The notes under the pieces: generated by a model
Seen by the model: the letters and a program-made list of their open reading frames with translations, nothing else
Database searches by the model: none
What the model was told of the DNA's origin: nothing
Translations under genes and position numbers: made by a program
Source: Helicobacteraceae bacterium
GTDB lineage: Bacteria; Campylobacterota; Campylobacteria; Campylobacterales; Helicobacteraceae
Direction: 5' to 3'
Assembly (NCBI GenBank): GCA_017508245.1
Contig: JAFVZI010000014.1
Span: 1-64,000 of the forward strand
DNA: 64,000 nucleotides
Part shown: positions 212-3,740 of the stretch, piece after piece
How positions within the stretch are numbered: position 1 is the first letter of the stretch
Layout: every line of letters begins with the position of its first letter

Positions 212-283
212 TTATGTTATAACCTGGGCTATTTCAATCACTGCAAAGGGTAAATCAAGGTATGAATCTAAAATTATTGCAAA

Positions 284-1987
284 ATGGGGGGGGGCAGCAA
301 CTATATAGCACTCATTCCAGCCTATAAACCTTCTTTAGAGCTAATTGATATAACAAATTCTCTACTTAAAAATAACATTATCGTCGTAGTGGTAAATGAT
401 GGTTCAGGAGAATCCTTTGATGATGTATTTTTGCGATTAGACAAAAAAGTCGTAGTATTAAAAAATGCGGTCAATCTAGGAAAAGGTGCTGCCTTAAAGC
501 ACGGAATAAATCACATTATTAATAATTATAAAAATGCAGAATCTATCATTACCCTTGATTGCGATGGACAACATAAAATACAAGATGTGCTGAATCTAAA
601 AGATAAATTTTCCTCACACAAAAATGCCGATTTAGCAATTGGAGTAAGAAAATTTGATGGTAAAGTACCATTTAGGAGTAGCATTGGCAATAAAGCCACA
701 AGAGTGATTTTTAAAATGATGTTTGGCAAAAAGATTCTAGATACACAAAGTGGGCTTAGAATCTTCAGCCTAGATTTTGCAAAGCTCATTCTTAGCATAC
801 CATACAATGGATATGAATTTGAAATGCAGATGCTAATCCTAGCGTGCAATAAAAATAAGACTATCTTGCAAGTTCCTATTGAAACAATCTACATAAATAA
901 CAACGCCAATTCAAATTTTAATCCTATATTTGATTCTCTTAGCATTTATTTTGTGCTATTTAGACATATTGGTAATTCGCTAGTTACTGCGGCAATTGAT
1001 TATATAGTCTTTGTGATAGCATTTAGTCTTGGATATAGTCTTTTATCTTGTATGATAGCAGGAAGAGTTATTGCAGGTAGCTTTAATTTTTTTGTCGGGA
1101 AAATGGTCGTTTTTAAAACGAAAGCAAATCTAAAATTTGAAATCACTTCGTATATAGCTTTAACAATCATATTAATGCTAATTTCTATGCAAGGCATAAA
1201 GTTTATATCACAGCAAAGCGGAATTAGCGAGATTATCATCAAACCAATTTGCGAAGTGATGATATTTGCCATCAGCTTTTTAATACAGAGATTTTTTATA
1301 TTTATTTCCAAAGATGACATTATTGGGGGGGGGATTGATGAAAAAGCCACAGATTGGGAATCTTATTATGCTGCCAATGCGAGAAAAATTCACATATCTA
1401 GTATCACAAGAAAAATTAGCCAAATGATTATTTTAAAACTTTTAAAAAGATTTGCTCAACAAAATAAAATATCTATGATTTGTGAATTTGGTGGAGGAGA
1501 TAGCTGCTTTTATGAAGGATTTAGAAACGTATATGACAAAGCATATTATAAAGTGCTGGATAATTCCCCAAATGGTGTCAATTTATTTAATACCAAGTAC
1601 AAAAATATTGCACCATTTATGCAAGAAGCACAAATATGCAATCTACTTTTACCAAATACAGAATCTAATGAGAAATTTGACATAGTTTTTAGTGCCGGAC
1701 TAATAGAGCATTTTGATAGACACAATACAAAGGCGATGATAAAAAGACATTTTGATTTTGCTAAACAAAATGGAATCGTGCTTATCACCTACCCTACTCC
1801 CACTTTGCTTTATATAATCATTAGAAAATCTGCAGAGATTCTAAAAGTGTGGAGCTTCTACGATGAAAGACCATTGATGTTTGAGGAAGTACACGATAGC
1901 GCAAAAGAATATGGGGAATTACTAGCAAGAAAATTAAATCTAGCCATAGGACTTACGCAAGAAATACTTGTTTATAAAAAAATATAA
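284..1987 (+). CDS. three-domain surface-glycan protein: GT2 glycosyltransferase, GtrA-like membrane domain, SAM methyltransferase
   Basis: Three modules sit in one 567-residue frame. Residues 7-225 are a GT2 domain of the polyprenyl-phosphate sugar synthase (DPM1/GtrB) type, with NDG at 38-40, DCDGQH at 92-97 and DTQSGLRIF near 153. Residues 226-345 form four hydrophobic segments like GtrA, the putative flippase partner of such enzymes. Residues 352-567 are a class I methyltransferase with EFGGGDS at 401-407 and AGLIEHF at 471. The inferred role is to load, flip and modify a sugar for surface glycans. A G9 tract lies at the start codon and another exactly between GtrA and the methyltransferase. 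The start is uncertain: ATG 262 has a weak upstream AAAGGG but is out of frame at the present tract length. The next gene follows after 10 bp. Confidence 0.8.
   Translation: MGGGSNYIALIPAYKPSLELIDITNSLLKNNIIVVVVNDGSGESFDDVFLRLDKKVVVLKNAVNLGKGAALKHGINHIINNYKNAESIITLDCDGQHKIQDVLNLKDKFSSHKNADLAIGVRKFDGKVPFRSSIGNKATRVIFKMMFGKKILDTQSGLRIFSLDFAKLILSIPYNGYEFEMQMLILACNKNKTILQVPIETIYINNNANSNFNPIFDSLSIYFVLFRHIGNSLVTAAIDYIVFVIAFSLGYSLLSCMIAGRVIAGSFNFFVGKMVVFKTKANLKFEITSYIALTIILMLISMQGIKFISQQSGISEIIIKPICEVMIFAISFLIQRFFIFISKDDIIGGGIDEKATDWESYYAANARKIHISSITRKISQMIILKLLKRFAQQNKISMICEFGGGDSCFYEGFRNVYDKAYYKVLDNSPNGVNLFNTKYKNIAPFMQEAQICNLLLPNTESNEKFDIVFSAGLIEHFDRHNTKAMIKRHFDFAKQNGIVLITYPTPTLLYIIIRKSAEILKVWSFYDERPLMFEEVHDSAKEYGELLARKLNLAIGLTQEILVYKKI
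286..294 (+). repeat. G9 homopolymer at the start of the GT2-GtrA-methyltransferase gene
   Basis: Nine consecutive G residues; the first is the G of the ATG at 284-286. An upstream ATG at 262-264 enters the glycosyltransferase frame only if the tract has 8 (or 11) G. With the 9 G seen here it stops after 21 codons, and only the ATG abutting the tract stays open. With 10 G both starts are out of frame. Long G tracts of this type are the usual site of slipped-strand phase variation in Campylobacterota. Confidence 0.85.
1325..1333 (+). repeat. G9 homopolymer between the GtrA and methyltransferase domains
   Basis: This is an in-frame GGG GGG GGG (three glycines, residues 348-350) at the boundary between the membrane domain and the methyltransferase. 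Adding one G makes the next codons GAT TGA, so the protein would end at once as a GT2-GtrA product. Losing one G gives a short out-of-frame tail of about 30 codons. In either case the methyltransferase is lost, while the first two domains stay intact. Confidence 0.85.
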
Positions 1988-3722: not shown

Positions 3723-3740
3723 AATCCTAGCAGATTCTAG
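3719..3740. repeat. inverted repeat at the convergent ends of two genes
   Basis: CTAGAATC at 3719-3726 and GATTCTAG at 3733-3740 flank a 6-nt loop, across the stop codon of the membrane-protein gene and the last codons of hypE. It is built from the abundant GAATC/GATTC motif. No T run follows on either strand, so it is not a canonical terminator, although a weak stop signal is possible. Confidence 0.55.

Follow-up and report, generated by a model that had tools for sequence, protein, structure and literature searches.

Most phase-variable genes are one-bit switches. The gene described here carries two runs of nine G residues, one at its start codon and one between two of its domains, and we ask whether it is switched twice over, once for its expression and once for the make-up of its protein. 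It lies in a 64-kb stretch of DNA with a G + C content of 31%, which was analysed as a whole and is called the window; all positions refer to it. Literature searches for this very gene found no report. We consider it likely that this is a two-bit contingency gene, in which tract 1 gates the synthesis of the GT2-GtrA enzyme and tract 2 gates its methyltransferase (MTase) C-terminus, with a variable surface glycan as the outcome.

Gene structure

The open reading frame at 284–1987 encodes 567 amino acids and joins a GT2, a GtrA and a class I MTase domain in a single frame (Table 1). In the window protein, Pfam Glycos_transf_2 matched residues 10–132 (E 1e-11) and GtrA_DPMS_TM residues 233–340 (E 5e-9); both matches are above cut-off and make up the domain set of a DPMS/GtrB-type synthase. 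The best PDB profile match of the GT2-GtrA part was the DPM synthase 5mlz, and the PpgS and AglJ models matched below cut-off; a PDB search with the single GT2-GtrA sequence gave no match, whereas profile searches did. By these matches the GT2-GtrA part resembles dolichyl- and polyprenyl-phosphate sugar synthases, which is its predicted activity. Methyltransf_23 matched residues 384–515 (E 1e-5) with 25.4 bits, just under the 27-bit cut-off, and some orthologs exceed the Pfam cut-offs for this domain. The AlphaFold model of the domain (pLDDT 82) matches class I SAM methyltransferases in Foldseek (E 1e-11), and on this model its fold is that of a class I SAM methyltransferase.

Table 1. Features of the two-tract gene and its surroundings in the window.
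Feature	Position	Strand	Evidence
GT2 polyprenyl-phosphate sugar synthase-like domain (DPMS/PpgS-like)	308..950	+	Pfam PF00535; NCBIfam PpgS below cut-off; PDB 5mlz DPM synthase via profile
GtrA / DPMS transmembrane domain, about four helices	965..1306	+	Pfam PF04138; hydropathy
Class I SAM-dependent methyltransferase domain	1349..1987	+	Pfam; AlphaFold pLDDT 82; Foldseek match with class I MTases (E 1e-11)
Downstream membrane protein, GT-C (GtrC)-like, 574 aa	1998..3722	+	Weak Pfam TMEM260-like O-mannosyltransferase match below cut-off; synteny
Tract 1, G9, predicted ON/OFF switch	286..294	+	Orthologs have 8–11 G in the equivalent place
Tract 2, G9, predicted fusion/split switch	1325..1333	+	10–12 G at this boundary in five further species; missing from G060
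AAAGGG, probable ribosome-binding site of ATG 262	246..251	+	Sequence; motif conserved 10 nt ahead of the corresponding ATG in G002; AAAGG(G)CTTTT-ATG in G001 and G111
Likely start codon ATG	262..264	+	Reads into the gene's frame when tract 1 has 8 or 11 G
Alternative ATG, overlaps tract 1	284..286	+	Reads into the gene's frame when tract 1 has 9 G; lacks a visible ribosome-binding site
ATG reading into the methyltransferase at 10 G in tract 2, possible restart	1314..1316	+	Frame analysis

Frame states of the two tracts

Besides the two G9 runs, the window has no run of six or more G or C. A chance origin of the tracts was rejected: the window holds four G8 matches against 0.11 expected from dinucleotide shuffling, and all 13 runs of eight or more G in 29.6 kb of ortholog loci sit at the two tract positions. 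About 25 comparable G tracts occur in the genome to which the window belongs.

Tract 1 determines which start codon opens the gene. With 8 G, ATG 262 is in frame; with 9 G, only ATG 284; 10 G closes both, and at other lengths the frame arithmetic gives short peptides. The start is probably ATG 262 rather than ATG 284, because AAAGGG lies 10 nt upstream of the former and is conserved in the sister species G002, and the latter has no such site; on this basis, the ON allele would be that with 8 G, and the deposited one with 9 G is probably weak or OFF. At tract 2, 9 G gives the fused protein and 10 G gives GGG-Asp-stop, and 8 G also truncates the protein, adding a frameshifted tail of about 30 residues. 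The length of the internal tract thus sets the C-terminus. A sequence-only reading of this DNA had proposed the three-domain gene, the position of both runs and the consequences of their lengths. The domains and positions were found as proposed, and the tract-2 arithmetic was confirmed and extended by the truncation at 8 G; the three frames given for tract 1 also stand, with the start now placed at ATG 262.

Under the favoured two-bit reading, slippage at tract 1 beside the start codon would set whether the GT2-GtrA enzyme is produced, and slippage at tract 2, in the linker that follows the final membrane helix, would set whether a cytosolic SAM methyltransferase domain forms the C-terminus. 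With approximately four membrane helices, both GT2 and MTase would face the cytosol, the compartment that contains SAM. The tethered methyltransferase would act on the lipid-linked sugar, and the downstream GT-C-like protein, as a GtrC-type transferase, would pass the sugar on to a surface glycan, so that glycans lacking the sugar, bearing it or bearing a methylated form of it would coexist in a population. The slippage within a strain, the enzyme activities, the methylated sugar and the loss of methylation in the split state are what we infer here.

Orthologs and conservation of the tracts

Orthologs were found in seven of 121 genomes of the family, spread over five genera, and none outside the family in an order-wide sample of 399 genomes. 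With one genome per species, they are those of G000 (the window's genome), G001, G111, G060, G002, G056 and G092; all are draft assemblies, in which assembled tract lengths can be consensus errors. In this order, tract 1 measures 9, 9, 10, 11, 8, 10 and 10 G, and tract 2 measures 9, 10, 12, none, 10, 12 and 12 G. Tract 1 is therefore present in all seven orthologs (8–11 G) and tract 2 in six (9–12 G), invariably placed after the last helix of GtrA and ahead of the MTase, the boundary at which the sequence-only reading had placed it. Lengths fixed at nine or interrupted tracts in relatives with the same protein would be at odds with switching; the lengths vary among the seven species as given, and none of the tracts is interrupted. 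The distance from tract to domain ranges from 6 to 153 nt, and flanks, linkers and N-terminal lengths differ among orthologs. As distances and flanking sequences vary while the tracts stay at the boundaries, it is their position that is kept and not the surrounding sequence. The locus shares with poly-G contingency loci a run of at least 8 near the 5' end, a frame shift leading to an early stop and lengths that differ between relatives.

Translated into predicted states, G111 is ON/fused, G002 is ON/split and G092 is probably the same, G001 is OFF/fused (as is G000 when read from ATG 262), and G056 is OFF/split. Each of the four predicted two-bit states is present in at least one species; these tract-1 calls hinge on the choice of start codon and are uncertain in G000 and G092, where two starts overlap in different frames. 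At tract 2, three of the two-tract species are fused and three are split. On these predicted states the two tracts are independent at the between-species level, and the two-tract domain gating that had earlier been offered as an inference gains support from the four frame-state combinations together with the conservation of the tracts.

G060 is OFF at tract 1 and permanently fused. Its fusion is clean, and its linker resembles that of G001 (ILDSINTES), except that the tract and a few codons next to it are missing. It lost or never had tract 2, which is thus not essential, and it constitutes a natural locked control.

Alternative explanations

Tract 2 could instead determine whether the gene yields a single fused protein or GT2-GtrA and a restarted MTase as separate proteins, in which case methylation would continue, untethered from the membrane. 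At 10 G, ATG 1314 is in the MTase frame and the stop of GT2-GtrA ends 26 nt after it, an arrangement with an equivalent in the observed split state of G002, and HCAN_0660/0661 of H. canadensis have been proposed to behave in this way (PMC2823697). With such a possible restart, 10 G need not abolish the MTase. ATG 1314 has no ribosome-binding site, however, and no such start precedes the MTase in the split G056 and G092, nor at either split length in G001, and we regard this explanation as unlikely.

The split orthologs could also result from gene decay or faulty assembly, with tract 2 as a functionless mutational hotspot. The genomes are drafts (the window's own assembly is 57% complete) and homopolymers are error-prone, but the MTase frame in the three split species has no stop or other frameshift and retains its conserved motifs. 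Its pN/pS is about 0.4 among these species (0.40–0.44, with pS near saturation), compared with 0.28–0.36 for GT2-GtrA in the same pairs; for G000 and G002 the MTase value is 0.24. The absence of stops and this pN/pS indicate that the MTase in split species is not decaying, and pseudogene decay was rejected on these grounds. Moreover, tract 2 lies at the same boundary in five of the seven orthologs besides the window's own while the flanks change. Decay or error is accordingly very improbable, and the sequences of the split species fit a gene caught in its MTase-less state rather than a pseudogene. The MTase domain is confined to the same seven of the 121 family genomes and never occurs without its GT2-GtrA partner.

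Long homopolymers can cause RNA polymerase or the ribosome to slip. The tracts might in this way yield several products in fixed proportions from a single DNA sequence, with no heritable switching, but the tract lengths in the DNA differ between species and land in different frames, and sequencing reads of H. canadensis show length variation in comparable G tracts (PMC2823697), which leaves this explanation little room. That selection at the protein level preserves the G runs as glycine linkers, as their location in interdomain linkers and their reading as Gly-Gly-Gly might suggest, is scarcely credible and was rejected on codon usage, since GGG is the rarest glycine codon of the window (11%) and GGG-GGG-GGG is thus not ordinary linker coding; in addition, tract 2 puts three of the six orthologs that have both tracts out of frame, G060 lacks it, the pure G runs persist as the frame changes, and no relative was found to use mixed Gly codons there.

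Relation to known systems

The closest precedent for the two-bit reading is found in H. pylori, where the Type IIG enzymes JHP1272 and HP1353-HP1354 have an ON/OFF tract and a tract for the C-terminal domain, and where frame correction and SMRT sequencing were used to test the switching (PMC3936762). In both cases there are two homopolymeric tracts per gene, the first an ON/OFF switch at the 5' end and the second adding or removing a C-terminal domain, which alters activity in the H. pylori enzymes. Those are DNA restriction-modification enzymes that gain a recognition domain, whereas the gene of the window, known from its sequence, encodes a predicted membrane glycosylation enzyme with a catalytic methyltransferase domain. 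Its domains (GT2, GtrA and a class I MTase of the small-molecule type) are not those of a Type IIG restriction-modification enzyme, so that it would work like JHP1272 without belonging to that enzyme family.

Late poly-G tracts that switch a C-terminus or join two reading frames have been described in H. canadensis (PMC2823697) and N. gonorrhoeae (PMC5320596). There the variation mostly concerns a few residues or uncharacterized proteins, in contrast to a whole enzyme domain combined with a 5' ON/OFF tract across genera. A homopolymer also decides between fused and separate halves in NgoAV hsdS1/hsdS2 (poly-G; PMC9577141) and in N. meningitidis pglB2 (poly-A, as cited in PMC5320596), the latter likewise a glycosylation gene; as described in these accounts, a single tract has the fusion role and is not paired with a 5' ON/OFF tract. 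Salmonella gtr operons share the phase variation of a GtrA/GtrB/GtrC-type sugar modification, but their GtrA and GtrB are separate proteins, they have no methyltransferase domain, and they switch through DNA methylation (PMC2909390). The two-switch principle is therefore known from JHP1272 and HP1353-1354; the enzyme class, predicted to act on surface sugars, the gating of a whole catalytic domain and the conservation across genera are new.

The cross-genus comparison indicates that a second, domain-gating bit in a surface-sugar enzyme is maintained by selection. Such a bit would let the presence of an enzyme and its chemistry vary separately. Frameshift splits that are annotated as two genes or as pseudogenes in such genomes can be one gene in another state, and the four states together with the tract-2-free fusion of G060 form a natural series for probing the role of the MTase.

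Genomic context

In each of the seven species, a large membrane protein is encoded directly 3' of the gene, at a distance of –4 to 22 nt. The weak, below-cut-off TMEM260-like match of the window's own copy is given in Table 1. On the simplest reading, the locus is a putative gtr-like cassette whose products attach a sugar to a surface glycan. G002 has no gap: its MTase frame and the start of the GT-C-like gene 3' of it share 4 nt (ATGA; L034 around 3217), which suggests translational coupling of the two; elsewhere the gaps are 9–22 nt.

In G000 and G002 the cassette is found at the 3' end of hypE and convergent with it, and G001 has it there in the opposite orientation (window 3723–3727; L081, L082, L083, L084). 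It is absent beside hypE in G003 and G004 and has other neighbours in other genera. Between G000 and G111, identity is 68% for GT2-GtrA versus 52% for HypE. This cross-genus identity hints at a lateral spread of the cassette. The fullest version of the two-bit reading, a selected switch in a mobile glycosylation cassette of at least four genera, in which independent tracts would set the sugar and its decoration by a tethered MTase and so draw three surface chemistries from one gene, we hold to be slightly favoured.

In the window's genus, runs of eight or more G share the 3' flank CAGCA(G/A)CAA, often with AATA/ATTA at the 5' edge (window 286–299; G000 C3, C6 and C12; L091–L110). The sequence GGGGGGGGCAGCA was counted 7 times in G000, 9 times in G001 and 13 times in G002, and 0 times in the reversed control. 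That this sequence is read in different frames suggests seeding of the tracts from a common DNA element and not retention at the protein level. Contig C3 of G000 (L073, 5742 bases) has five G8–G9 runs on one strand; at least one of them splits two long reading frames, and one is near a methyltransferase stretch that is distantly like the MTase of the window (31%).
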